Shown: positions 21,466-41,250, numbered from the stretch's first letter. The stretch: DNA of 57,278 bases from Dehalococcoidales bacterium (GCA_020342155.1 CP070842.1:1-57278); one strand, 5' to 3'. The notes: a model not told the origin generated them from the letters alone. A program made the numbers and translations.

Positions 21466-22734
21466 CTAGGGGCTGGGTGTATGGCAGACAGAGCAGTCGC
21501 TGCGGCCTTCGAGCTTATGCGGTATTTGGGGTACACCACCCGAGACCACGCTATGGCATAGCTCGCAGGTTGCATCAGTCCGGTTACTATGTGTCGCTGG
21601 TAGTACACCGACCATCTGTCCGGCAGAATGGCACTCGGAGCATGGACGGTGGTCATCATCTACCGGATGGGGAACACCTGTCGGCAAAACTAACGAAACC
21701 TTATGGCAGACTAAGCATGTCTGATCAGTTCGGTCAGCGTGGGACTGCGGCAGGATTACCAGGCCTTGCGCCGAATGGCAGGTTGAGCAGAACTCCATCT
21801 CTCCCCCGAGGCCGTGGGCAATCAGCGTTGCCATCACCGTTGAGACATCGTGGCAGACCTGACAGGTCTCATCTGTCCTACCATTATGAGTGGCCGGTAG
21901 CGTAACCATCGCTCCAGCGGCATGGCATGACGTGCAAGCACCGTCTTCAGTAGCCTCGTGCGCTATCAGGGGTGTTGGTACCGGCGACAGTGTGTGACAG
22001 GTGCGACACCATATCGAGCTGTCCCTGCCCTCATGGCTTGCGGGCAGGTCTACCATAGCTCCTGTAGCGTGGCATACGGGGCAGGAGGAGTTCTTTTCTA
22101 CATTATGGGTTATACCGGGTGGCAGAACCGGGGTGACATCATGGCATGCCTGGCACATCGGCTCAACGGCTCCTTCATGATCGGCGGGTAAGTCTAATAG
22201 ACCCTCATCACCGTGGCAATTCGTGCATACCCATCCCTCAACAGCGTGAGCTATATATGGAGCTTGAATACCGATCTCCTCATGGCACATGAGACATGTT
22301 TGTACTGGGCGATCTTCATGGCTGACTGGTAGAGGTGTCAGGCTCCCGGCAGCATGACATTGGTCACATATGCCCCGCCGACCTTCGATGTCATGTGTTA
22401 TGTGTGTCACTCCGCCGGGAATCATCTGATGACAGGTCGGGCAGATCGCATTTCCTCGACCTTCGTGACTGGCCGGAACCGGCCAGAGCACCCGTGTATT
22501 ATGGCAGACTAAACAGTCGTCTCTGCCTTCAGTAACATGTGGTATATCAGGACCGATACGCTCTCCTGGCAGGTCACCACCGTTATCATCCACTACATCT
22601 CCGTTGTCAGGTTCTCCGTTGTCGTCTGTTTGTGTATCACGTTCACAACTGGCAGATAGCAATGCTAACACAGTAAGGAGCGCAAATATTGCAATGAAGA
22701 GATAGGCCTTATGAGGCATGTGATCAGCTATCAT
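21466..22734 (-). CDS. 15-haem tandem-repeat c-type cytochrome lipoprotein
   Basis: The 422-residue protein begins with a hydrophobic signal segment ending L-L-S-A-S-C, an approximate lipobox. An acidic Asp/Asn/Gly linker (to about residue 60) follows. The rest holds 15 CxxCH haem sites in seven consecutive ~47-residue units of two haems each, plus a half unit. The shared pattern is C-x-x-C-H-A-x-G-x-M-V-x-L-P-x-S-H-E-G-R, then a second CxxCH and P-x-I-x-H. Every CxxCH has an additional His shortly before it, suggesting bis-His haems. It should be anchored outside the membrane as an electron conduit. It is divergent from the tetrahaem gene at 23095. Confidence 0.9.
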   Translation of the reverse strand: MIADHMPHKAYLFIAIFALLTVLALLSASCERDTQTDDNGEPDNGDVVDDNGGDLPGERIGPDIPHVTEGRDDCLVCHNTRVLWPVPASHEGRGNAICPTCHQMIPGGVTHITHDIEGRRGICDQCHAAGSLTPLPVSHEDRPVQTCLMCHEEIGIQAPYIAHAVEGWVCTNCHGDEGLLDLPADHEGAVEPMCQACHDVTPVLPPGITHNVEKNSSCPVCHATGAMVDLPASHEGRDSSIWCRTCHTLSPVPTPLIAHEATEDGACTSCHAAGAMVTLPATHNGRTDETCQVCHDVSTVMATLIAHGLGGEMEFCSTCHSAQGLVILPQSHADRTDQTCLVCHKVSLVLPTGVPHPVDDDHRPCSECHSAGQMVGVLPATHSNRTDATCELCHSVVSGGVPQIPHKLEGRSDCSVCHTPSP

Positions 22735-23094
22735 GTAACTTTAGAACGGCTGCCAACTTTTATGATTTATGATGGTAAACATTGTAAGTGATTTCGTACT
22801 AGCTGTCAATAACACCGTAGAACTCTATTGTCCAATATTGAGCTGGAAAGTATAGAACAATAATAAACCAATATTGAACTCGCGTTCTTACCAATTTTCT
22901 ACCGAGTTCCTACCTCCTTTTTACTCTCCCGACGTATGATATAGCTAGGAACACAGGGGATAGCTCACTTGAGCGTGCACGTGCTTGACAAACTGGATAT
23001 AGCTATAGTAGTGTATATTACTAGTCTTCAATATAAGTCTAGTAATAATTAATCTGTTGCATGCAGAAAAATCAATGCTTCAAGAGAGGTGCAG
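22735..23094. promoter_or_regulatory. Divergent control region between two cytochrome genes, with repeated palindrome and dyad
   Basis: The stretch separates the divergent 15-haem and tetrahaem genes. Two copies of CCAATATTGA (22832-22841 and 22868-22877), each containing the palindrome CAATATTG, lie 36 bp apart. Nearer the tetrahaem gene, TATTACTAGTCTT (23016-23028) and AAGTCTAGTAATA (23035-23047) form inverted arms with one mismatch around six bases. TTGACA occurs at 22985-22990 but no well-spaced -10 follows. The elements could be operators for one regulator acting on both genes. Confidence 0.45.
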
Positions 23095-23505
23095 ATGAAT
23101 AAAAGACGACTGATGCTAGTGTTATTTGCTCTCTTTGCTATAGGAGGGGCCGTAGGTGGCTGGTGGTTCAGCCAGTCGGTCCCGTTGTTACACCCGGAGG
23201 GAATTCCTACTAATGTAGCTCACGCCGCAGGAGGTCTAGCGGACGGGTGTGTGAAATGCCACACGGCGGCTCTTCCTTTTTCAAATTGTCTGGATGCGGG
23301 TTGCCATGATTCGCTCGAAACTGCTGTTGGCACCAACAGTAATGTGTATCTCGCGCACCATGATGTAACGGCAACCGATTCTTGTATTGATTGCCACCAG
23401 GACCCGTCTTACGAAAATGACGCTCGATATGTTGCGATTCCAGAGACTAATCATGGTTTCTGTAGTTCATGCCATAACATGATGCAGCACCAGACAGGCA
23501 GCTAG
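23095..23505 (+). CDS. Small tetrahaem c-type cytochrome
   Basis: ATG 23095 is preferred because AGAGGT lies four bases upstream; GTG 23089 is also in frame. The 136-residue product has an N-terminal basic-hydrophobic signal or anchor (about residues 3-23) and then the haem sites. These are C-V-K-C-H, the unusual C-L-D-A-G-C-H (CX4CH), C-I-D-C-H and C-S-S-C-H. Several additional histidines could be distal ligands. The size resembles periplasmic electron shuttles such as the tetrahaem c3-like or class III cytochromes. A strong terminator follows at 23526-23563. Confidence 0.85.
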   Translation: MNKRRLMLVLFALFAIGGAVGGWWFSQSVPLLHPEGIPTNVAHAAGGLADGCVKCHTAALPFSNCLDAGCHDSLETAVGTNSNVYLAHHDVTATDSCIDCHQDPSYENDARYVAIPETNHGFCSSCHNMMQHQTGS

Positions 23506-23525: not shown

Positions 23526-23563
23526 AAAGGGACGCTACACTAAGTAGCGTCCCTTTTATTTTA
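23526..23563. terminator. Rho-independent terminator, probably bidirectional
   Basis: The perfect stem GGGACGCTAC / GTAGCGTCCC (23529-23538 and 23544-23553) has a 5-base loop. It is extended by A-T pairs and followed by ttttatttta on the plus strand. The preceding A-run gives a U-run on the minus strand. It lies between the convergent tetrahaem and NrfD genes. Confidence 0.9.
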
Positions 23564-23585: not shown

Positions 23586-24905
23586 TCACCCGATCTCAGG
23601 TGCGTCAGTAGCTGTTTCGGTAGGAACAAGAGGCGGGTTCGCTCCTTCTTCCTGTCCAGATACTGGGGCATTGTCTTCCAGTGGCAGAAGGCGACTACCC
23701 AGAGAATAAAGTAGAAGCCACATGCCAACAGCCGCAACGACAGTCAGTATCTCGATGATATGAGGGAAGTAGTGCCAGAGTTCGTCCTGACCGACAATCG
23801 GAGACAACTGTCCGGCGATAACCAGGTTATATCTCGCAAAGAATGTACCGACGAAAATCAGGAGTGGAGCTACTATCAACCCCCATGTTCTCTTACCCCG
23901 TGTGTAGGCAAGGATAGCGATTGGAATAATCAGACCAATTATGATTTCACCTGCCCAGAAGGATACCGCCAGCGGCCCGTTTACCAGCACCTTCACCGAA
24001 TTATAGCTCTCAGGAATAAGTCCGTACTGGGCGGCAAGAATATTCCAGACGGTGAATACCAGGTAAATTCCAATAAGGAGCAGAATCAGCTTGCTCAGGG
24101 TCTGTGTGACCCCGGCAATCTCAGGGGCCGGCTCTTGGCCTTTACTTCTATGCTTGAGTACCAGAAACAGTGTCAGGATAGAACTACCGGCAACAGAGGC
24201 TGACAAGATAAAGTAGACAGGCAAGAATGGGCCGTGCCAGATAGTCCTCGAACTTGTGAAGCCAAAGACCGCCCCCAGCATACTTAAAGCTGCAATAGCG
24301 AAAAAGACAGCCGCGGTCCCGCTGATTTTTGCTACCTTTTTACTGTGCTGTAAGAAGTACTCCATGTCTGGATTAGACCAGATTGCTAGTATCCGATAGA
24401 GCAGCTTTGTAGAGCCTGGAGAGGCCTGCAACCTGCGTATTGCTTCAGCACGGCATAAAAAGATAAACTCCAGTATAAGGAGAATCAAGTAAACGGCGTA
24501 GAGGCAACCCATCCACCACATTGGTGAGGTGGGGTTGGGGGTGACAAAGAGGTACATCGCCATACGCCACGGGCTTTCTAGGTCAGAGGCGATAACCAGA
24601 AATCCAGAGAGCATCAGGGTTATCGCTATGAGAATAGCCCGGTGTCCTATCGGCTTGAATCTATCTATGCCGAATATGTGTCCCAGTGAAGAAAGCAGGC
24701 ACAGTCCCGAAGCGGGGAGCACGAAAAACAGGTAGGTCGAAATTAAAATGCCCCAGGGCACACCGGTACTCGTGTTAAAGGTCGCATGGTGCCCTATGAC
24801 GAAGCCGACAACAATGGCTGTGAAACCTCCCAGGGTCACCGCCGCCATTAAGGCAATCCACAGATTAGAACGGGACAGTAGTCTTTCCTGACTTATACTA
24901 GCCAT
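23586..24905 (-). CDS. NrfD/PsrC-family quinone-interacting membrane subunit
   Basis: The 439-residue protein is strongly hydrophobic, with about ten membrane segments and a hydrophilic, Pro/Glu-rich C-terminal tail of ~40 residues. The start G-F-T-A-I-V-V-G-F-V-I-G-H-H-A-T and the loops W-G-I-L-I-S-T-Y and A-S-D-L-E-S-P-W-R are typical of polysulfide reductase NrfD. These proteins exchange electrons between menaquinol and a partner ferredoxin-like subunit. The 4Fe-4S protein gene ends directly at its start, and the hexahaem gene precedes that. No molybdopterin or other catalytic subunit is adjacent. Confidence 0.88.
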   Translation of the reverse strand: MASISQERLLSRSNLWIALMAAVTLGGFTAIVVGFVIGHHATFNTSTGVPWGILISTYLFFVLPASGLCLLSSLGHIFGIDRFKPIGHRAILIAITLMLSGFLVIASDLESPWRMAMYLFVTPNPTSPMWWMGCLYAVYLILLILEFIFLCRAEAIRRLQASPGSTKLLYRILAIWSNPDMEYFLQHSKKVAKISGTAAVFFAIAALSMLGAVFGFTSSRTIWHGPFLPVYFILSASVAGSSILTLFLVLKHRSKGQEPAPEIAGVTQTLSKLILLLIGIYLVFTVWNILAAQYGLIPESYNSVKVLVNGPLAVSFWAGEIIIGLIIPIAILAYTRGKRTWGLIVAPLLIFVGTFFARYNLVIAGQLSPIVGQDELWHYFPHIIEILTVVAAVGMWLLLYSLGSRLLPLEDNAPVSGQEEGANPPLVPTETATDAPEIG

Positions 24906-25676
24906 TTAACGTACTCCTTCCCTGAGACCTGTGTAATAGACGCGGGGCTTTGTCCCTAGGGAAGGTCTTATTACCTGGAGGCTCTCATCCAGAAGACGCT
25001 GCCTGACCGGGTCTTCAGGTTCCAGGAGGTTACCAAAAGACCGTGCACCCCTTGGACATGCCTGAACACAGGCTGGTGGCAGTCCCTGGGTGATTCTGTG
25101 GTAGCAGAATGTGCACTTATCCACCACTAAAGTCTCAGGATTAAGGAAGCGGGCTCCGTAAGGACACGCCACCACACAATACTTGCACCCGATACACCGC
25201 TCCTGGTCCATCAGGATGACGCCGTCATCGGTACGGAAGGTAGCGTTGAGCGGACATACTGATACGCATGGTGGATTGGCACATTGCTGGCATAACTTCG
25301 GGACAAAGAAACCATTAAGTGAATCATTGTCCGGCTCGAATCCGAGGTCTGTCTTTGTAATAAGTTCCGCCTGCAAGCTGCCATCCGCAGCTATTTCGTA
25401 TCGTTCCAGCCAGGTACGGTACAGTTCCGGTTCATGTGGCACATGATTCTCTTGCTCGCAGGCACTTAGGCAACGCCGGCACCCGATACACTTCTCAATG
25501 TCCACGATCATAGCCCACTGGTATTTTCCCGCTTGGTAAGCAGCAGGATCCGTCTGTTCATCATCCAATTTGTTGTTTTGATATAACCACAGGGCTGCGG
25601 GAAGGGAACCATACACAACCACTCCACCCACTGTCAATCCAGATATCATAAGAAACTGTCGTCGCGAAACGGTCAT
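24906..25676 (-). CDS. TAT-exported 4x[4Fe-4S] ferredoxin-like electron-transfer subunit (NrfC/DsrO type)
   Basis: The 256-residue protein begins with a twin-arginine signal: V-S-R-R-Q-F-L followed by a hydrophobic stretch to about residue 32. Four cysteine groups follow. The first is C-I-G-C-R-R-C-L-S-A-C near residue 62. The others are C-Q-Q-C-A-N-P-P-C-V-S-V-C-P, C-I-G-C-K-Y-C-V-V-A-C-P and C-T-F-C with C-V-Q-A-C-P. This is the pattern of NrfC, PsrB and DsrO, which join an NrfD subunit on the outer face. Its start overlaps the hexahaem stop by four bases, and GGAGGAG precedes the ATG. It probably transfers electrons between NrfD and the cytochromes. Confidence 0.9.
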   Translation of the reverse strand: MTVSRRQFLMISGLTVGGVVVYGSLPAALWLYQNNKLDDEQTDPAAYQAGKYQWAMIVDIEKCIGCRRCLSACEQENHVPHEPELYRTWLERYEIAADGSLQAELITKTDLGFEPDNDSLNGFFVPKLCQQCANPPCVSVCPLNATFRTDDGVILMDQERCIGCKYCVVACPYGARFLNPETLVVDKCTFCYHRITQGLPPACVQACPRGARSFGNLLEPEDPVRQRLLDESLQVIRPSLGTKPRVYYTGLREGVR

Positions 25677-26287
25677 TGTGTATCTCCTCCTTGTTCATGG
25701 CAGTGCGTGCAGCTCTCGATAGGCCGCTGTGCATGGTCAGCGGGGGCTGGATGGAATCCCTGAGTCCCGTGGCAAATCCGACAGTCTACGCCTTTGTAAA
25801 CCGTGTGGATAGATGGGGGAGCTCCTCCCACATCAGGGCACATCGGATTATGGCAATGAATACAGGAAAATCCACCGCAGTGTTCGGCAGAGACTACCTG
25901 GGGAAAGTCATCGGGCCTTGAACAGCATGCTTCGTGACAGGTGATACATAAGTCGGCTGAAGTATTCACTATCATTGAGGTAGATTCTTCAACATGTAGT
26001 CCTCCCGAACCATGGCAGCTTTCACATACTACCGTGCAGTGCTCCGACTCTAGCCATTCGCCCAGTATGGTCTGATGGCAATCACCACATTGTTCTGTGC
26101 CAAGATAACTCACCTGTCTTTCCATGACACTGGCCTGAGCAATTTCCTGGAACGAAACCCTGCTTCCAGGCTGGTCAAGATATGGGGCGAGGAATGCGTC
26201 CAGTAATATCCAGCCGAAAATGAAAACGGCCAGGGCGACCACTGCAAGTCCCATTGTAATCAAGGGATTCTGAGGTAGTTTGCTCAT
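25673..26287 (-). CDS. Membrane-anchored hexahaem c-type cytochrome
   Basis: The 204-residue protein has one N-terminal membrane segment (about residues 10-30), then six CxxCH sites: C-G-D-C-H, C-E-S-C-H, C-I-T-C-H, C-I-H-C-H, C-R-I-C-H and C-T-H-C-H. Additional cysteines (for example in E-A-C-C-S) are unusual. It overlaps the ferredoxin gene by four bases, so the two are translationally coupled, and AGGAG lies before the ATG. It probably is the haem partner of the NrfD/ferredoxin pair, similar in position to NrfH- or ActA-like subunits, without close match to either by eye. Confidence 0.85.
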   Translation of the reverse strand: MSKLPQNPLITMGLAVVALAVFIFGWILLDAFLAPYLDQPGSRVSFQEIAQASVMERQVSYLGTEQCGDCHQTILGEWLESEHCTVVCESCHGSGGLHVEESTSMIVNTSADLCITCHEACCSRPDDFPQVVSAEHCGGFSCIHCHNPMCPDVGGAPPSIHTVYKGVDCRICHGTQGFHPAPADHAQRPIESCTHCHEQGGDTQ

Positions 26288-27095: not shown

Positions 27096-27245
27096 TTACT
27101 CTGAGTCGCTGTCTTTTAGCGATTCACGTAAGGTATTGATTTCGGCTCTCAACTGCCTCTGCCGGTTAAAAAGTAAAAACACAAACCCAAATAGCAGTAC
27201 CCATACTATCGCGAAAGCAGCAAATAGAAATCCAGCGTTTTCCAT
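27096..27245 (-). CDS. ccmD: CcmD-like small membrane protein
   Basis: A 49-residue ORF begins at ATG 27245, with AGGGAG a few bases upstream. One membrane segment (about residues 5-28) is followed by a helical charged tail (R-Q-R-Q-L-R-A-E-I-N). This size and layout match CcmD, which stabilises the CcmABC haem exporter and CcmE release. Position directly after ccmC supports the call. The sequence itself is too short to be conclusive. Confidence 0.7.
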   Translation of the reverse strand: MENAGFLFAAFAIVWVLLFGFVFLLFNRQRQLRAEINTLRESLKDSDSE

Positions 27246-27276
27246 TATTATACTCCCTGTACCAGCAATTGAATGT

Positions 27277-27951
27277 TCAATCGCGTAGTTCCTTCAACCT
27301 TTTTAATTCAACCTCGTCTTTCCTGATGGCTATTCTGAGCGTAAGGAGTAACCAGTACAACAGTGTAAAGGCGACCAGGCTAACAAGTAATGTGGCCAGC
27401 ATGGAGGATTCCAGGCCTCCCTCAAAAATGACCGCGCTGGGATGCTGTGTCCGCCACAGGCTAATCGCCAGGGCCACAATGGGTACATCAATAAAGCCGA
27501 CTATGCCAACTATAGCAGCAAATCGAGCACCCCGTTGCTCGTCAGCAGTATAAGGACGGATAATGAGGTAGGCGAGGTACATCAGCCAGAGGACCAGTGC
27601 TGCGGTGAGCCGGGCGTCCCACGTCCACCACACACCCCAGACCGGTTTTGCCCATATAATACCTGTAATCAGAAACAGGGTGGTGAAGGCTACTCCTACT
27701 TCGGCGGACGAATGAGCTAAAACGTCCCATTTTTCCTGTCGCTTCCAGAGGTACATTACGCTGCCGATAAAAACTAGGAAGAATGCGAGAAAGGCAAGCC
27801 ATGCCAATGGGACATGGAGATAGAATATCCTCTGTATGACACCCATCTCATATTCAGTAGGAACCCAGATAAAGATGAGGTACATGGTGACTACCATGGC
27901 AATTGTTGTTAGCCCCAGCAGTGCCATTCTAAATATATGGTTCTCTTTCAT
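27277..27951 (-). CDS. ccmC: Cytochrome c maturation protein CcmC (haem-handling membrane protein)
   Basis: The 224-residue protein has about six membrane segments. It carries the tryptophan-rich haem-handling motif W-G-V-W-W-T-W-D near residue 108, flanked by histidines in F-Y-L-H-V-P (about residue 46) and A-H-S-S-A-E (about residue 80). CcmC passes haem to CcmE. A strong ribosome-binding site (AAGGAAGG) precedes ATG 27951. It sits between ccmB and ccmD on the same strand, each with close spacing. Confidence 0.93.
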   Translation of the reverse strand: MKENHIFRMALLGLTTIAMVVTMYLIFIWVPTEYEMGVIQRIFYLHVPLAWLAFLAFFLVFIGSVMYLWKRQEKWDVLAHSSAEVGVAFTTLFLITGIIWAKPVWGVWWTWDARLTAALVLWLMYLAYLIIRPYTADEQRGARFAAIVGIVGFIDVPIVALAISLWRTQHPSAVIFEGGLESSMLATLLVSLVAFTLLYWLLLTLRIAIRKDEVELKRLKELRD

Positions 27952-27960
27952 CCTTCCTTA

Positions 27961-28629
27961 CTACTCCTCAATAGCATAGCTGAATACCCAAAATGATACC
28001 ACCAGGAAGATAGCATCAAAAGCACCGATTATCTGGAGCCATGAAGCGATTTCACCCCATGATTCACCTGAGAGAGCCAGTCCCGATCCCTCGACGGCGG
28101 CGATAATGAGCGGGACAACAATTGGAAGGAATAACAGCGGAAGCACCATCTCCCGTGCCTTGGTGTTGATTGCCAGCGCTGAGAACAGGACACCGACGGC
28201 GACGAAGCCAACCGTTGTGAGCAGAGTGATAACTATCAGTTGAAACGAAATATCCAGATTAAACAGAATGGCGAATATCGGCAGGGCAACTACTTCTACA
28301 GAGAGCATAAAAAGCAGACTGGCCAGCATCTTCCCTAGATAGATGCCCTCCCGGCTTACGGGGCATACCATCAGTCCCTCAAGGCAACCCTCCTCCTTCT
28401 CTATGATAAAAGAGCGATTAAGACTCAGCACGCCGGCAAAGGTGAAGGTTATCCAGAGCATGCCTGGGGCTACCATCTGTATTGTGTTTTGACCGCCTCC
28501 AAAGGCGAAATTGAAAATAACGATCACCAGGAGAGTGAAAACCAGCACCGAGAAGATGATTTCTCTAGTCCGAAATTCAGAGAGAACATCTTTCCATGTT
28601 ATAGCCAGAACCTTCCGCCAGAATCTCAT
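27961..28629 (-). CDS. ccmB: Cytochrome c maturation ABC permease CcmB
   Basis: The start at ATG 28629 (222 residues) removes an upstream hydrophilic extension and lies five bases after the CcmA stop. The protein has six membrane segments and the CcmB-type start W-K-D-V-L-S-E-F-R-T-R-E. N-R-S-F-I-I-E-K-E-E-G-C-L-E-G-L-M near residue 73 is a classical cytoplasmic loop. With CcmA it forms the ATP-driven unit that releases holo-CcmE. The closely spaced gene order E-F-zinc ribbon-A-B-C-D supports one operon. Confidence 0.92.
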   Translation of the reverse strand: MRFWRKVLAITWKDVLSEFRTREIIFSVLVFTLLVIVIFNFAFGGGQNTIQMVAPGMLWITFTFAGVLSLNRSFIIEKEEGCLEGLMVCPVSREGIYLGKMLASLLFMLSVEVVALPIFAILFNLDISFQLIVITLLTTVGFVAVGVLFSALAINTKAREMVLPLLFLPIVVPLIIAAVEGSGLALSGESWGEIASWLQIIGAFDAIFLVVSFWVFSYAIEE

Positions 28630-28633
28630 CCTA

Positions 28634-29359
28634 CTACCTTGTAGTCTCCTCGTAGACTTTACGCAGGGTTGACAGGTCTGGACTAATCCCTGTTTGCTCG
28701 TGGACAATCTTCCCCTTGGCCAGAATTACGAGGTGGTTACCCAATTCAAGGCTACGCTCCAGGTTATGGGTGGTCATGACGACGGTACGTTTCTTCTGCT
28801 CCTCGTTCTGTAATGCCTGCCAGAGCATGGGCAGGGCCTCCTGGTCCAGTCCGGTTTCCGGTTCGTCCAGTAACATGATATCAGGCTTGTGAAGCAGGGC
28901 TCGTGCAATTGAAAGTCTCTGTTGCATGCCGCGGGAGAGGGTACTTACCCGGTCGTTGAGACGAGTAGCCATTCCTACTGTATTTACTACTTCGTGGATT
29001 CTCTGCCTGGCTTCGGCAACATCGTACATGCGGCTGTAGAATTCCAGGTTCTCACGAGCAGTAAGGTTATTGTATAAAAACGTCTGGTGGGTTACCACGC
29101 CAACCCGACGCCTTATCTCTTCGGCATCTTTCTTGAGGTCAAGACCACCAATTCGCACTTCTCCTGAGGAAGGTTTCATAATGGTGGCTAATATCTTGAG
29201 CAGGGTTGTCTTGCCAGCTCCATTAGGGCCAAAGATTATGAGGAAATCACCGTAAGTTACCTGAAGGTCAATCCCTCTCAAGGCACGGTTGTTACCGAAG
29301 GTCTTGGTCAGTTCCTGGACCTCTACTCCGGACGAAAGAGGAATACTGTCACTCATCAT
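28634..29359 (-). CDS. ccmA: Cytochrome c maturation ABC ATPase CcmA
   Basis: The reading starts at ATG 29359 or 29356, overlapping the end of the zinc-ribbon gene (241 residues). It shows Walker A, G-P-N-G-A-G-K-T-T, near residue 38, and a signature close to L-S-R-G-M-Q-Q-R. Walker B is I-M-L-L-D-E-P-E-T-G-L-D, and the switch histidine is in T-H-N. CcmA hydrolyses ATP for the CcmB complex. Translational overlap with the upstream gene suggests coupled expression. A second, unrelated ABC ATPase is at 45726. Confidence 0.93.
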   Translation of the reverse strand: MMSDSIPLSSGVEVQELTKTFGNNRALRGIDLQVTYGDFLIIFGPNGAGKTTLLKILATIMKPSSGEVRIGGLDLKKDAEEIRRRVGVVTHQTFLYNNLTARENLEFYSRMYDVAEARQRIHEVVNTVGMATRLNDRVSTLSRGMQQRLSIARALLHKPDIMLLDEPETGLDQEALPMLWQALQNEEQKKRTVVMTTHNLERSLELGNHLVILAKGKIVHEQTGISPDLSTLRKVYEETTR

Positions 29360-29561
29360 TCTCTGCTGTTTTAATAAGACTGGCTCCGCAGCGGGGACAG
29401 AAAATATCACCCTCACGCCGCTTTACCCCGCATTTGGGGCAGAATCCGGCATCCTTAGCACTATTTTTCTGTCGGTGCGGTGCCTGAGGTTTTCTGAAGA
29501 ATGGATAGGCGATAAAAAAGAATGCTACCAGTGCCAGTAAAATAGAAACCAGAACGGTCAT
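29349..29561 (-). CDS. Membrane-anchored zinc-ribbon protein within the ccm operon
   Basis: The 70-residue protein begins with one hydrophobic segment (about residues 3-22) and ends in a zinc ribbon with two CxxC pairs, C-P-K-C-G and C-P-R-C-G, fourteen residues apart. It overlaps ccmF by four bases and ccmA by a few, so it is an integral part of the operon. No recognised Ccm protein matches it. In many operons CcmH or CcmI occupies such positions, but neither has a zinc ribbon. Ribbon location cytoplasmic versus outside cannot be decided. Confidence 0.7.
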   Translation of the reverse strand: MTVLVSILLALVAFFFIAYPFFRKPQAPHRQKNSAKDAGFCPKCGVKRREGDIFCPRCGASLIKTAENDE

Positions 29562-31507
29562 CGGGGATTCCTCCTATCAGGCCAGAAAGCAATGAGTCCC
29601 CCGGTGAGGAAAACAAAACCTCCTATCCATATCCAGCTGACCATAGGGTTTACCATGAATGTATAGGAAACGGCACCGATCTCAAAATCCCAGCCCATAA
29701 GGATAACGTAGAGGTCTTCAATAAGGGTACTTCGGATAGCTACCTCTGATACCGGGTTTGGATAGCTCCTGTGGAAGCATTTCTCTGGAGTCAGTTCGCC
29801 AATCAGCTTTCCCGCATCGTAGACAGTGAGGGTGGTGCGTAAGATAGCTTTAGTATCACCGACGTGTTCGACTTCCATATCTTCATAGGTGAGGGTATAT
29901 TGCTTGATGGTGGCCGATTCACCCGGCATCAGGGTAGCTTCTGTCTCAGTATTGAACAGGGACGAACCGGTGATGCCGACAGTAATAATGACAATGGCGA
30001 TGTGAACCAGATAGGCACCATAGCGTGGCCGGTTCGCGCCAATCAGTCCGAAAAAGGAGGAAACAGCATCGCTGCCGCTGGTCCGGCGCCGTGTTATTAC
30101 CTCTTGTAGCCACTGATACGCTATTGCCACGAGAATGAATGAAGAGAGCGAGAAGATAACTATGGCTGCCCACTGTCCCATCCCCACGACAAAAAGAACT
30201 ACCCCGCTTACTACTGCTACCCCCGCTGGCCACAACAGCTTCCGAATCAGATTCCTGTTTGAAGGCCGCTGCCAACCAATAATCGTACAGATACCGGCGA
30301 GTACTATAATAGTTATAAAAATGGGATTGGCCACCTGATTGAAGAAGGATGCGCCGAGCTCGATCTTGGCACCGCTTAATGTCTCGGATATGAGTGGGTA
30401 CATGGTTCCTACGAATATGACTGCTGTGGCTCCTACCAGGAGCAGGTTGTTCAGCAGGAAGGTACTTTCCCGGGAGACCATAGTGTCAGTCCCTGTATCA
30501 CTTTTCAGCCATTTTCTGCGATAGAGCATTAGGCCTAATGAACCGAAGAGGGTAATACAAAGAAATGCGAGGAAGAAGGGACCCAGGTTGGACTCGCTGT
30601 AAGTGTGGACTGAGGCGATAATACCGCTCCGGGTCAGGAAAGTGCCAAAAATAGCCAGTGTGAAGCTGAGAATTACCAGGACCATGCTCCAGGCTTTGAA
30701 CCTGTATCTCCGTCGCTGCATCACGGCAGAATGAATGAAGGCGGTAGCTATCAGCCAGGGCATCAGCCCGGCATTCTCCACCGGATCCCAGGCCCAGTAG
30801 CCTCCCCAGCCCAGTTCCACGTAAGCCCACCAGGCACCGATGAGATTACCCACTCCGAGAAGGAGCCAGGCAAGAAGCATCCATCGTCGTATAGTTAACA
30901 ACCATTCTGCGTCGAGCTTCTTGGTCAACAGGGCGGCGATGGCAAAAGCAAACGGCACGGTAAGACCAACATAGCCGGCCAGCAGGAGTGGTGGGTGAAA
31001 AATCATTCCCACGTTTTCCAGCATGGGGTTAAGCCCCGTACCGTCAGCAGGAACGTAGGACAGCTCAGTAAACGGGTTTGATACCGCAATAAGCACGATC
31101 AGGAAGAAGGCTTCGGTGAACATAATGGTTGCCGCAGCATAAGGTACCAGTGCTGCGCCGCGGTTTCGCTTTTGCAGGACAACCACCAGTCCCACCAGGG
31201 ATAAGAGCCATGCCCAGAACAGCAAAGAGCCATCGTTTCCTGCCCAAAGGGCACTGATGAGATAAGGTAGGGACATATCGAGGCTGGTATAGGCGCTAAC
31301 GTATTCTATCTGGAAATTATGTGTAACCAGGGCGTGTAAAAGGATAATAACGGCCATAGAGACCAGTCCGAACGTGGCAATCAGGCCGTTACGGGCACTT
31401 TCTAAAAGGGTGGTGCGATTTTGCCGTTGTCCGAACACATAGGCCGTGATTGAGTATATTGATGTTATCAGGGCTAGTATCAGGGTAATATATCCGATGT
31501 TTACCAT
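29558..31507 (-). CDS. ccmF: Cytochrome c haem lyase CcmF
   Basis: The 649-residue protein has about fourteen membrane segments. It contains G-N-D-G-S-L-L-F-W-A-W near residue 90 and the haem-handling W-x-W-D region as G-G-Y-W-A-W-D-P-V-E-N near residue 230. Histidine loops for a haem b lie in the later segments. A large extracytoplasmic domain follows before the last segment. CcmF attaches haem to apocytochrome cysteines. Its start follows the CcmE gene by ten bases, and the end overlaps the zinc-ribbon gene. Confidence 0.93.
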   Translation of the reverse strand: MVNIGYITLILALITSIYSITAYVFGQRQNRTTLLESARNGLIATFGLVSMAVIILLHALVTHNFQIEYVSAYTSLDMSLPYLISALWAGNDGSLLFWAWLLSLVGLVVVLQKRNRGAALVPYAAATIMFTEAFFLIVLIAVSNPFTELSYVPADGTGLNPMLENVGMIFHPPLLLAGYVGLTVPFAFAIAALLTKKLDAEWLLTIRRWMLLAWLLLGVGNLIGAWWAYVELGWGGYWAWDPVENAGLMPWLIATAFIHSAVMQRRRYRFKAWSMVLVILSFTLAIFGTFLTRSGIIASVHTYSESNLGPFFLAFLCITLFGSLGLMLYRRKWLKSDTGTDTMVSRESTFLLNNLLLVGATAVIFVGTMYPLISETLSGAKIELGASFFNQVANPIFITIIVLAGICTIIGWQRPSNRNLIRKLLWPAGVAVVSGVVLFVVGMGQWAAIVIFSLSSFILVAIAYQWLQEVITRRRTSGSDAVSSFFGLIGANRPRYGAYLVHIAIVIITVGITGSSLFNTETEATLMPGESATIKQYTLTYEDMEVEHVGDTKAILRTTLTVYDAGKLIGELTPEKCFHRSYPNPVSEVAIRSTLIEDLYVILMGWDFEIGAVSYTFMVNPMVSWIWIGGFVFLTGGLIAFWPDRRNPR

Positions 31508-31517
31508 AGGCTATATC

Positions 31518-31964
31518 TTAACTCTCGTCTGATTCCTCCGGGACATATTTAGAGGGGCACTTGGTCTTTAGTGTGTGTGCCTGGAAGATGCCAGCTGAGT
31601 CAAGATAACCCTCTATGACAACATCATTACCTTCGGTGAAAGCGTCCGGTACCACACCCTCGTACACCACGGGAACCGTTTCTTCGCCATCGACGCTGGC
31701 AATGCTGAACCTGAGAATGCGACCAACCGCCTCCTGTTCTACTGAGCCAGTTAATACCTGGCCATTAACCTGGACATTCTGGTCAATAACAGAATCTCCC
31801 TGTTCGATAAACTCGCTGACCGTATAGTAATAGACTGCTGAGATGGAGAAACCCACGTAACCCAGATAGGCTATGGCGGCTAATACCACGACACCACTGA
31901 TGAAGAACTTCTTTCGTTTCAGCAATATTTCACCATCACTGGTATGCACCCCGGGTGCATCCAA
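31518..31964 (-). CDS. ccmE: Haem chaperone CcmE, CxxxY type
   Basis: The 148-residue protein has one N-terminal membrane segment (about residues 20-40) and a small OB-fold domain, then C136-P-S-K-Y140. The haem-binding motif is therefore CxxxY rather than the HxxxY of E. coli. Such CcmE proteins belong to the System I* variant known from archaea and some sulfate reducers. It is the first gene of the operon. A possible -10 (TATACT on the minus strand, 31978-31983) is very close to the ATG, implying a short leader. No ccmG or ccmH is in the window. Confidence 0.88.
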   Translation of the reverse strand: MDAPGVHTSDGEILLKRKKFFISGVVVLAAIAYLGYVGFSISAVYYYTVSEFIEQGDSVIDQNVQVNGQVLTGSVEQEAVGRILRFSIASVDGEETVPVVYEGVVPDAFTEGNDVVIEGYLDSAGIFQAHTLKTKCPSKYVPEESDES

Positions 31965-33244: not shown

Positions 33245-34111
33245 TTACACACCCAGCAAGACATCGAGGCACATGCCCAGGAACAGCAGACCGAGATAGG
33301 GGAATGCCGACAGCCGGTACAATCTCCATGAAGCCTGAGAAGAAGCCGAGATTGCCAGTCGCAGGCTGGTGTAGAGCAGGACACAGCCCAGGATGTTTAC
33401 CAGCAAGAGGAAGACCCAGGAAAAACCACCGGCGAAGTATAGCGTAATAGACGCAGCATAAAGCATCAGGCTCAGGACCACGAGGAGCCTAACCACCTCA
33501 CCGGTTTTCCGATTCAACGGAAAGTAGCCGATACCGGCACGAGCGTAGTCGTCCCGCCGGGCGACCATTACGCTCCAGAGGTGGATGGGTACCCAGATGG
33601 CGATGAGGAGGCAGAGCAGTAGCAACTCCCAGTCGAAGGTTGGACTAATGGCAAACCAGCCCGTCAGCACCGGCGCGCAGCTGGCCAGCATACCCTGGGG
33701 AAAGACGCACGTCCACCTCTTCCGCCAGCTTACCGCCGCAATTACTCCTACCAGGCCAGCCCAGAAGCAGAACGGGTGCATCCACCAGGCCAGTACCAGG
33801 GCGCCAAGGACCAATACTGTAACGAGGGGCAGTACTTTCTCGGGCGGATAGATGCGTCCTGAGGGCAAAGCTCGGTGGCTGGTCCTTTGCATCCTGGCAT
33901 CGATATTGCGGTCCAGATAATTAGTGAGCCCGTTGGTGCCACTGCTACCCGCCAACAATCCGACCGAGACGAGCACCAGTCGGCCCGGTGAGGTAAATCC
34001 GCCTCCGGCGATGACGGCGGCACATATTCCGATGAAGCTCAGCAGGATGCTCTCGCGAGGCTTCAACACTTCAAGGTAGTTACTGGCTGCACCGAGAACG
34101 GAATGCCTCAT
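33245..34111 (-). CDS. ctaB: Haem O synthase (protohaem IX farnesyltransferase), UbiA family
   Basis: The 288-residue protein has about eight membrane segments. The prenyl-diphosphate motif is N-Y-L-D-R-N-I-D-A-R-M near residue 64, followed by R-T-x-x-R-A-L-P-S-G, which fits haem O synthases better than quinone prenyltransferases. It farnesylates haem b to make haem O for a haem-copper oxidase. GGGAG lies before the ATG. No oxidase subunits appear in the window. It may be either part of the cytochrome island or the first gene outside, because the att-like fragment lies just beyond its stop. Confidence 0.8.
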   Translation of the reverse strand: MRHSVLGAASNYLEVLKPRESILLSFIGICAAVIAGGGFTSPGRLVLVSVGLLAGSSGTNGLTNYLDRNIDARMQRTSHRALPSGRIYPPEKVLPLVTVLVLGALVLAWWMHPFCFWAGLVGVIAAVSWRKRWTCVFPQGMLASCAPVLTGWFAISPTFDWELLLLCLLIAIWVPIHLWSVMVARRDDYARAGIGYFPLNRKTGEVVRLLVVLSLMLYAASITLYFAGGFSWVFLLLVNILGCVLLYTSLRLAISASSQASWRLYRLSAFPYLGLLFLGMCLDVLLGV

Positions 34112-38808: not shown

Positions 38809-39327
38809 CTATTCCTGGAGTCTCTGACTGATTTCGTATTCTCTAGTGACACTCTTATCTCCGGAGCGCGTTTCCACCGTCAGTTTCCATGAATCAGTCT
38901 GGGGGGTGAGGGTTGCCGAGTAGATGTTGTCTGCTATTAGGGCTGTCGTGTTGCTTATTTCCACACCCTCGCTATCACGGGCAATCTGGTTTCTCTTTAG
39001 TTGCTTCATTGAGTCAGTTGAATCAAACCACAGGTAACGGGTGTCGTAGGTGTACCCATTCTCCCAGTCCTTCCAGAAGAGGGCAATGAACTCGAGCTCA
39101 GCGGTTTCGGGATCGTCGCCGATGTCAATGGTACTTACTGTCAACGCATCCTGACTGATCCACTGGCCAACACTCTGGGCTTGGCGTACTGCCACGTTCC
39201 AATCGCTGTTTTGCCGGGAGCTTCTGAAAATCTGAGCGGTGGTCATACCCGCGCCGACGGCAAGCAGGGCCGAAATGCTGACGGCTATTAGTATCTCAAC
39301 AAAGGAGTAACCCTTCTCGCTCTTCAT
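38809..39327 (-). CDS. PilW-like prepilin-type protein
   Basis: The 172-residue protein carries a type IV prepilin N-terminus: G-Y-S-F-V-E-I-L-I-A-V-S-I, with cleavage expected after the Gly and the conserved Glu at mature position 5. A long hydrophobic helix follows. It overlaps the previous gene by four bases. Minor pilins of this type prime pseudopilus or pilus assembly. No assembly ATPase, PilC or prepilin peptidase is in the window. Confidence 0.8.
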   Translation of the reverse strand: MKSEKGYSFVEILIAVSISALLAVGAGMTTAQIFRSSRQNSDWNVAVRQAQSVGQWISQDALTVSTIDIGDDPETAELEFIALFWKDWENGYTYDTRYLWFDSTDSMKQLKRNQIARDSEGVEISNTTALIADNIYSATLTPQTDSWKLTVETRSGDKSVTREYEISQRLQE

Positions 39328-39749
39328 CTGGCCACCTTATAAACAACGAGTGAGAGGACGGTTTCACCCTGGCGTTGAGCGATGACTGTCACCTTCTGAA
39401 GGCCGTCATCACTGGCGTGCACGGGCTCGACAATGGGGGTTGGCACCGTCCAGCCTTCAGGGATGGTGAGTGTTGGATCGACCGGATATTCCGATGTATC
39501 GTATTGGTAGCCGTACCTTTTAACGTACTCCGCTTCACTGCGCACCAGACTCTCAGCAATTGACTGTTCTTTTGTAATGATAGTCGCCCGGGTGCTCGTG
39601 CCTATACCACCAAGAAAGGCAATTCCCACCAGGCCGAGGATGGTAATGCCAATCAAGATCTCAATCAAACTGACACCACTCTCGCCTTGTACAGGGCAGC
39701 CTTTGAGTAGCTTGAGGGGTCGTATCAGGTGCTTCCGCCAGCCGAACAA
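39324..39749 (-). CDS. PilV/GspI-like prepilin-type protein
   Basis: The 141-residue protein has the prepilin motif E-S-G-V-S-L-I-E-I-L-I-G-I-T with Glu at position 5 of the mature form, and A-E-S-L-V-R-S-E-A-E-Y-V further on, a PilV-type helix. It begins with TTG (39749) after a near-perfect AGGAGGTGAT Shine-Dalgarno, which decides the start. A hairpin overlaps that ribosome-binding site (39761-39784). Confidence 0.78.
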   Translation of the reverse strand: MFGWRKHLIRPLKLLKGCPVQGESGVSLIEILIGITILGLVGIAFLGGIGTSTRATIITKEQSIAESLVRSEAEYVKRYGYQYDTSEYPVDPTLTIPEGWTVPTPIVEPVHASDDGLQKVTVIAQRQGETVLSLVVYKVAR

Positions 39750-39978: not shown

Positions 39979-41250
39979 ATGAAGAGGACGCATGTTTCTG
40001 TACTGATGATAACTTTAGCCGTAGTGCTAGGCCTGACAGCCTGTACCCCCAATCTGGCAAGCGAGGTGTTAAGCTCGGAGAAGCAGAGGGTGACTTCTCC
40101 GGATGTGCCCGAGGCTGACCTGACACTTCTGGTTGATGGCAGTAGTGCCTTTACCTTCGACCTCTATCAGGCTCTCAGAGATGAGGAGGGTAATCTGTTC
40201 TACTCCCCATACAGCATCTCGCTGGCACTGGCGATGACGTACGCTGGTGCTCGTGGTGAGACAGAACAACAGATGGCAGATGCCCTCAATTTCCTGCTGG
40301 CACAAGAGGGACTTCACCCGGCGTTTAACAGCCTGGATATCCTGCTCGGCCAGCGCGGTGAGGGTGCCGAGGGCAAGGATGAGGAGGGCTTCCGGTTGAA
40401 CATCGTCAATGCCATCTGGGGCCAGAAGGACTACGAGTTCCTGGCCGAATTCCTCGACATCCTGGCTGAGAACTACGGCGCCGGGCTGAGAATACTCGAT
40501 TTTATCAATGAAACAGAGGAATCACGTGTCACCATTAACGACTGGGTCAGTGACCAGACGGAGGGACGTATCGAAGACCTGATTCCGCCGGGTGTGATTA
40601 CGGCACTGACACGGTTGGTCCTCACCAACGCTATCTACTTCAACGCAGCCTGGGAATATCCCTTCAATGAGGATGCTACCTACAACGGTCCTTTTTACCT
40701 GCTCGATGGGAGTGAAGTCACCGTACCGATGATGAGCCAGACGGAGTCATTCGGCTATACTGAAGGCGAAGGCCATCAGGCAGTTGAACTGCCATACGAT
40801 GGCCACGAGCTATCGATGGTAATCCTGCTCCCCGAAGAGGGACAGTTCGAGGCGTTCGAGGGCTCTCTGGATGCTGCTTTCGTGGATGCTATTATAGAAG
40901 ACCTGGGGTCAAGAGAGGTCGCCCTGACGATGCCCAAGTTCGAATTCGAGTCCGAATTTGGTCTCAAGCAGACTCTGACGGCGATGGGTATGCCGATTGC
41001 CTTTACAGACGCTGCGGACTTTTCCGGCATGACGGGCATACCAGACCTGCACATAGCAGAGGTCATCCACAAGGCATTTGTCTCTGTCGATGAGGCCGGT
41101 ACTGAAGCGGCTGCCGCCACCGCTGTGATTATGGATCTATCAGCAATGCCCGAAGTGGTTGAGATGACTCTTGACCATCCCTTTATCTTCCTGATTCGGG
41201 ATATCGAGACCGGTACAATACTGTTCGTCGGGCGTGTGGTGAACCCCTAG
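39979..41250 (+). CDS. Serpin-family protease inhibitor, predicted lipoprotein
   Basis: The 423-residue protein begins with a signal peptide and lipobox-like L-G-L-T-A-C. It shows serpin hallmarks: N-L-F-Y-S-P-Y-S-I-S near residue 74, T-N-A-I-Y-F-N-A-A-W, and L-P-Y-D-G-H. The reactive-loop hinge E-A-G-T-E-A-A-A-A-T begins at about residue 372, with H-P-F-I-F-L-I-R-D following. Counting 17 residues from the hinge Glu gives P1-P1' at about S388-A389 (L387-S388 adjacent), which suggests inhibition of elastase-like or subtilisin-like proteases. It is complete and probably anchored outside the cell. Confidence 0.9.
   Translation: MKRTHVSVLMITLAVVLGLTACTPNLASEVLSSEKQRVTSPDVPEADLTLLVDGSSAFTFDLYQALRDEEGNLFYSPYSISLALAMTYAGARGETEQQMADALNFLLAQEGLHPAFNSLDILLGQRGEGAEGKDEEGFRLNIVNAIWGQKDYEFLAEFLDILAENYGAGLRILDFINETEESRVTINDWVSDQTEGRIEDLIPPGVITALTRLVLTNAIYFNAAWEYPFNEDATYNGPFYLLDGSEVTVPMMSQTESFGYTEGEGHQAVELPYDGHELSMVILLPEEGQFEAFEGSLDAAFVDAIIEDLGSREVALTMPKFEFESEFGLKQTLTAMGMPIAFTDAADFSGMTGIPDLHIAEVIHKAFVSVDEAGTEAAAATAVIMDLSAMPEVVEMTLDHPFIFLIRDIETGTILFVGRVVNP

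Follow-up and report, generated by a model that had tools for sequence, protein, structure and literature searches.

The window analysed here is a stretch of 57,278 nucleotides from a Dehalococcoidales bacterium (GCA_020342155.1 CP070842.1:1-57278). The presence of three genes on the minus strand at 23586-26287 was confirmed; they encode a hexahaem cytochrome c (HEX), an iron-sulfur protein (FeS) and an NrfD-family membrane protein (Table 1). The genes overlap or abut, as the first-pass annotation had stated: HEX and FeS share 4 bp (ATGA), and the FeS stop codon directly abuts the NrfD ATG. Motifs resembling ribosome-binding sites precede FeS (GGAGG) and NrfD (AAGGAG). The trio combines an NrfC/NrfD redox module and a cytochrome c, in agreement with the quinone-interacting NrfD/ferredoxin/hexahaem unit proposed in that annotation.

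Table 1. Features of the trio and its surroundings (positions in the window)
Feature	Position	Strand	Characteristics
MHC15, 15-haem lipoprotein, candidate surface cytochrome	21466-22734	-	15 CXXCH; lipobox LLSASC
MHC4, small membrane-anchored tetrahaem cytochrome, possible shuttle	23089-23505	+	3 CXXCH and 1 CX4CH; PF02085, E 5e-6
Inverted repeat, candidate terminator	23526-23556		13-pair stem separating the convergent MHC4 and NrfD genes; consensus match only
NrfD-family integral membrane subunit	23586-24905	-	439 aa; PF03916, E 4.7e-37
FeS, NrfC/DsrO/TtrB-like	24906-25676	-	256 aa; 16 Cys; twin-arginine-type signal; Fer4_11, E 6e-27
HEX, membrane-anchored hexahaem cytochrome c	25673-26287	-	204 aa; six CXXCH; one N-terminal hydrophobic anchor
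Cytochrome c maturation operon ccmE-F-A-B-C-D	27096-31964	-	directly upstream of the trio, same strand

The FeS N-terminus reads SRRQFLM, and the arrangement of the cysteines fits four [4Fe-4S] clusters. FeS scored 195.6 bits against the curated DsrO model (cut-off 200) and 200 bits against TtrB (cut-off 416), and matched Thermus PsrB with an E value of 2e-45. The window's proteins reached none of the curated Nrf, Qrc, Dsr, Hmc and Hyb subunit models, DsrO being the nearest. In HEX, haems 1-4 form a conserved core that is invariant in 11 aligned sequences, whereas the C-terminal haems vary; by sequence match to MHC15 units, its C-terminal dihaem unit is of the kind repeated in the 15-haem protein. 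The structure prediction for HEX was of low confidence (pLDDT 62, pTM 0.36) and the model was set aside.

In MHC15, the CXXCH motifs recur with a period of 23-25 residues and form a tandem array of alternating unit types, each of ~24 residues. The lipobox makes this protein a candidate for the cell surface. The six-haem and 15-haem arrays are not products of chance. Within the maturation operon, CcmE, CcmF and CcmC were identified by domain matches, CcmB and the ABC ATPase were also matched, and a CcmD-like peptide was recognized from the sequence. Relatives from the same order carry short dihaem lipoproteins beside CcmE/CcmF (L193 7748-8146, L194 7431-7823, L195 12371-12658), which align to MHC15 units at 31-42%. 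Because these lipoproteins and the C-terminal dihaem part of HEX resemble MHC15 units, the sequences suggest, without proving it, that MHC15 originated by repeat expansion through unit duplication.

Catalytic and multihaem genes in the genome and in relatives

No catalytic gene adjoins the trio. The 2.30-Mb genome contains nine Mo/W oxidoreductase genes, the closest of which, at 131 kb, is ~105 kb away from the trio, so the earlier statement that no catalytic subunit lies nearby was upheld. The two remaining NrfD genes of the genome, at 376 and 597 kb, each belong to a separate operon that also encodes an FeS protein and a Mo/W subunit; the reading frame of each Mo/W subunit contains one TGA, probably for selenocysteine. 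Given the distance to the closest Mo/W gene and the engagement of the other NrfD genes in their own operons, a catalytic partner elsewhere was rejected.

Genome-wide and on both strands, CXXCH clusters were confined to the window (15, 6 and 3 motifs), which together with one CX4CH gives 25 haem motifs; the stretch from ~1.89 to 2.30 Mb was read directly and held no ORF with two or more CXXCH. These 25 motifs are the entire multihaem complement of the genome. There is no other multihaem protein and therefore no NrfA, MccA, octahaem enzyme, or nitrite or sulfite reductase elsewhere, and this two-strand census ruled out a hidden nitrite or sulfite reductase. An oxidase is also unlikely as the electron sink, since no haem-copper oxidase gene (COX1, PF00115) was found in the genome, despite the presence in the window (33245-34111) of a UbiA-family protein most similar to haem o synthase (TIGR01473, 158 bits against a cut-off of 210).

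With HEX, FeS and NrfD probes, at least 12 genomes of the same class were found to carry the trio in this order and orientation, and again with no catalytic gene beside it. Among named genomes, a scan recovered it in Chloroflexi, Dehalococcoidales, Methanosarcinales METP1, Methanoperedens, Archaeoglobus JdFR-37, Bacteroidota, Krumholzibacteriota and a Thermodesulfovibrionia bacterium (Nitrospirota), and further named-genome records yielded only HEX and NrfD close together. In the contig scan of these named genomes, matches were returned by the HEX alignment query and none by the NrfD protein query. The missing catalytic subunit is a regular property of the trio and is conserved across phyla.

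These observations bear on the possibility that the trio is the remnant or membrane portion of a catalytic complex, of Nrf type or another, with a catalytic subunit encoded elsewhere in the genome. The first-pass annotation had itself foreseen this case as one that would count against its proposal, and FeS does score against the NrfC, TtrB and DsrO models. However, the absence of a catalytic neighbour is conserved across phyla, the genome encodes no other multihaem protein and hence no NrfA, MccA or octahaem enzyme, and the model scores fall below the curated cut-offs, with DsrO for the archaeal FeS of L097 as the sole exception. We therefore consider this explanation highly improbable and already largely refuted.

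In the class sample, a HEX match better than 1e-30 was present in 13 of 393 genomes and a full-length 15-haem homologue (E below 1e-30) in four of 393. Only two of the 13 genomes with a strong HEX match also carried a full-length 15-haem homologue, namely that of the window and G083, in which a 44% identical homologue lies directly downstream of NrfD. The link between trio and 15-haem protein made in the first-pass annotation is thus plausible in view of G083, but a general pairing was rejected, as most trio genomes are devoid of a full-length 15-haem homologue.

The cytochrome cluster of G083 (L080, 5761-15530) comprises two proteins with seven CXXCH each, a cytochrome b561-like protein, the trio, the 15-haem homologue and an 822-aa protein with eight CXXCH that carries collagen-like and carboxypeptidase-regulatory-like repeats; the HEX reading frame in L080 may be disrupted. 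In L078, L081, L086, L090 and L096, a gene for a 251-273-aa protein with one N-terminal TM helix is found just upstream of HEX or beside the trio, and the L078 copy encodes a Band 7/SPFH protein (PF01145, E 4e-36).

Relation to known complexes and history of the NrfD subunit

The first-pass annotation had concluded that the module matches no known complex in gene content. This did not hold: both the layout and homologous subunits have been described in Methanoperedenaceae, and Cbc4 and Nhc are analogous. Assignment to a known complex, which that annotation had named as grounds for refutation, was largely achieved, the complex being the NrfD-type menaquinone:cytochrome c oxidoreductase. Its version in Methanoperedenaceae comprises multihaem cytochromes, a ferredoxin-type 4Fe-4S protein and an NrfD-like protein; one copy is highly expressed during Mn(IV) reduction, and the NrfD clusters with the Dehalococcoidales family RBG-16-60-22 (PMC7327174, PMC7082337). 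These units have been described as groups 4/5 (PMC7327174) and as an operon with NrfD, a 4Fe-4S protein and 3- and 6-haem cytochromes (PMC7082337).

The trio has the same three gene types in the same order and likewise no catalytic gene; identity to Methanoperedens L100 was 43% over the full length of FeS and 30% in the HEX core. Unlike the Methanoperedenaceae units, it has an NrfD of another subtype, six haems in HEX rather than the three of L097 and L100, and a link to a 15-haem lipoprotein. Gene content and subunit homology thus place the trio in the Methanoperedenaceae/Dehalococcoidales type, and its NrfD falls outside the clade of the other trio NrfDs, a phylogenetic refinement of a published definition that is made by gene content. 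The clade mismatch marks a variant; the name quinone:cytochrome c oxidoreductase rests on architecture and function.

Several other systems share the layout. Geobacter Cbc4 (CbcS-CbcT-CbcU) combines a cytochrome c, an FeS protein (the DsrO-like CbcT) and a membrane subunit with no catalytic subunit, and Shewanella SirCD beside a cytochrome c3-family gene is similar, both being comparisons of architecture only (PMC11434368). Cbc4 has been placed between quinol and periplasmic cytochromes, and CbcU is also called a b-type cytochrome (PMC11434368). The nine-haem complex NhcABCD of Desulfovibrio likewise joins a multihaem cytochrome, a protein with four [4Fe-4S] clusters and an NrfD-like subunit and has no enzyme active site, but it differs in its nine haems, the extra NhcD and its TpIc3 partner (PMC8076601); the window's NrfD was far below the cut-offs of the related sulfate-reducer models.

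Qrc and alternative complex III also couple an NrfC/NrfD module to a multihaem cytochrome, and the NrfD fold here matches ActC. In contrast to QrcABCD, the trio has no Mo-like QrcB, and the scores reached only 121.5 bits for the QrcC model (cut-off 400) and 52.6 bits for QrcD (cut-off 570). It differs from alternative complex III in having neither a fused Mo-like/FeS ActB nor ActE/ActF, FeS being a stand-alone protein and NrfD the product of a single gene at the locus. The JOP part of DsrMKJOP is a comparable trio of cytochrome c, FeS and NrfD, and FeS comes close to the DsrO cut-off, whereas DsrM/DsrK are missing next to our trio, NrfD scored 30.5 bits against a DsrP cut-off of 350, and the cytochrome has six haems, not three. 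Nrf nitrite reductase (NrfABCD) is set apart by its NrfA pentahaem subunit, which the genome, having no other CXXCH cluster, does not encode.

In a tree of 25 NrfD proteins, the NrfDs of the window, L077 and L086 formed a group separate from the NrfDs of every other trio (support 97/100). The next relatives of this group were the NrfDs of L087 and L088, whose genes have no neighbouring hexahaem gene. The FeS proteins of the window, L077 and L086, by comparison, fell among the trio FeS proteins, a clade with support of 94/96 in the larger tree and a weak 40/75 in the reduced tree. In topology tests with several long branches and with groups named after the trees had been seen, a single clade of all trio NrfDs was rejected (p-AU 0.009), as was a grouping of the window, L077 and L086 FeS with the L087 and L088 FeS, which is how their NrfDs group (p-AU 1e-6). 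An NrfD unlike the subtype found in most trios, combined with FeS and HEX proteins that belong to the family, would fit an exchange of the membrane subunit; we treat this as a lead rather than a result.

New at this locus are the combination of a differing NrfD subtype with the FeS and HEX of the family, and the position of the sole multihaem complement of the genome beside a Ccm operon. A tentative and possible extension is that the trio is a hybrid in which FeS and HEX derive from the known menaquinone:cytochrome c oxidoreductase family and NrfD from another lineage, the ion-coupling/quinone part having been swapped and the electron-wire part kept. With the 15-haem surface protein and the Ccm operon, such a hybrid would form a complete and sole extracellular electron-transfer locus in an order known for quinone-free respiration.

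Two genomes of the same genus do not carry this NrfD and have a different Ccm cluster (CcmF 36-37%). The locus would therefore either have arrived, newly or as a replacement, during the history of the genus, or have disappeared from the sister genomes. Beside the different Ccm cluster, these genomes (G001 and G002; L233 4093-6061, L234 14020-15985) encode a protein of 361 aa that carries ten CXXCH, together with a twin-arginine-type FeS protein that is unlike the window's FeS (32-34%). There is no NrfD in the stretch, which represents another Ccm-linked cytochrome module with no obvious membrane partner.

Proposed electron path, quinone and direction

We consider it likely that the trio is an NrfD-type quinol:cytochrome c oxidoreductase that links the quinone pool to c-type cytochromes on the outside of the membrane and, through these, to surface cytochromes and an external acceptor. 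As it sits with the only multihaem cytochromes of the genome, it is probably the starting point of a short electron wire that leads to the cell surface. Quinol would deliver electrons to NrfD at a quinone site near the outer face, from where they would pass through the four [4Fe-4S] clusters of FeS to HEX as the membrane-anchored receiver. HEX would then pass them to MHC4, to MHC15 at the surface or to both, and the surface protein would reduce the external acceptor, so that a separate catalytic subunit would be unnecessary. We infer the formation of the complex, its outward direction, the surface location and the identity of quinone and acceptor.

The NrfD model (AlphaFold2; pLDDT 77, pTM 0.79) resembles ActC of alternative complex III (6lod_C, TM 0.77/0.74) and PsrC (2vpw_C). 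A PDB search with the single NrfD sequence gave no match, and a profile query led to ActC. Asp108, at an acidic-or-histidine position, and Ser127, the family serine, mark a putative quinone site, and Arg358 is a conserved arginine. According to Calisto and Pereira, the serine at the position of Ser127 is present in all quinone-reactive NrfD proteins. Residues and predicted fold support quinone exchange but do not prove quinone use, because the quinone-free complex of Dehalococcoides includes an NrfD-like subunit in which structure prediction likewise shows a quinone-like pocket (PMC10772276).

The window's genome probably belongs to the same order as Dehalococcoides. In a search for two menaquinone-pathway markers in this genome (~94% complete), MqnA/MqnD (PF02621) was not found and no MenB scored above the family cut-off. 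Together with the NrfD-like subunit of the quinone-lacking Dehalococcoides (PMC10772276) and the nine Mo/W oxidoreductase genes, this result speaks for a quinone-independent module like the organohalide-respiration complex, in which an undocked hydrogenase, formate dehydrogenase or similar enzyme would feed FeS/NrfD and NrfD would be a proton path or anchor only. Against this, the two other NrfD subunits already have Mo/W partners in their operons, the lineages from which homologous trios are known possess menaquinone pathways (PMC7327174), and NrfD has retained its quinone-site residues; we regard a quinone-independent role as improbable.

The outward direction of the proposed quinol:cytochrome c oxidoreductase is suggested by its published homologues; the sequence features leave the direction unfixed and would suit either sense. 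The same complex might run inward as a cytochrome c:quinone reductase, with electrons taken up from a mineral, a partner cell or another external donor passing via the 15- and 4-haem proteins and HEX to quinone. Qrc, which has an analogous hexahaem subunit and FeS and NrfD module, works in this opposite way (PMC13059093), and Nhc is listed as a TpIc3:quinone oxidoreductase (PMC8076601). We nevertheless think an inward flow rather unlikely: physiology and expression assign the closest published homologues, those of Methanoperedenaceae, to the outward direction (PMC7082337), and the genome encodes neither a soluble cytochrome c3-type partner nor any multihaem protein elsewhere.

The missing catalytic subunit, then, is a regular trait of a three-gene electron-transfer unit that is widespread in Chloroflexota, archaea and several other phyla. 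The locus offers a compact test case, as ~11 kb contain all 25 haem motifs of the genome along with the maturation genes and a single quinol-linked module, so that expression or deletion of the entire proposed wire as a unit would be feasible. If an exchange of NrfD did take place, the membrane coupling module and the electron wire would separate in evolution, and the two NrfD subtypes would merit comparison with respect to ion coupling.

Two further features lie in the window. A full-length serpin (39979-41250; PF00079, E 5e-119) is unusual for an anaerobic bacterium of this kind, and neighbouring genes at 38809-39749 encode two small proteins that carry prokaryotic N-terminal methylation (pilin-like) motifs.
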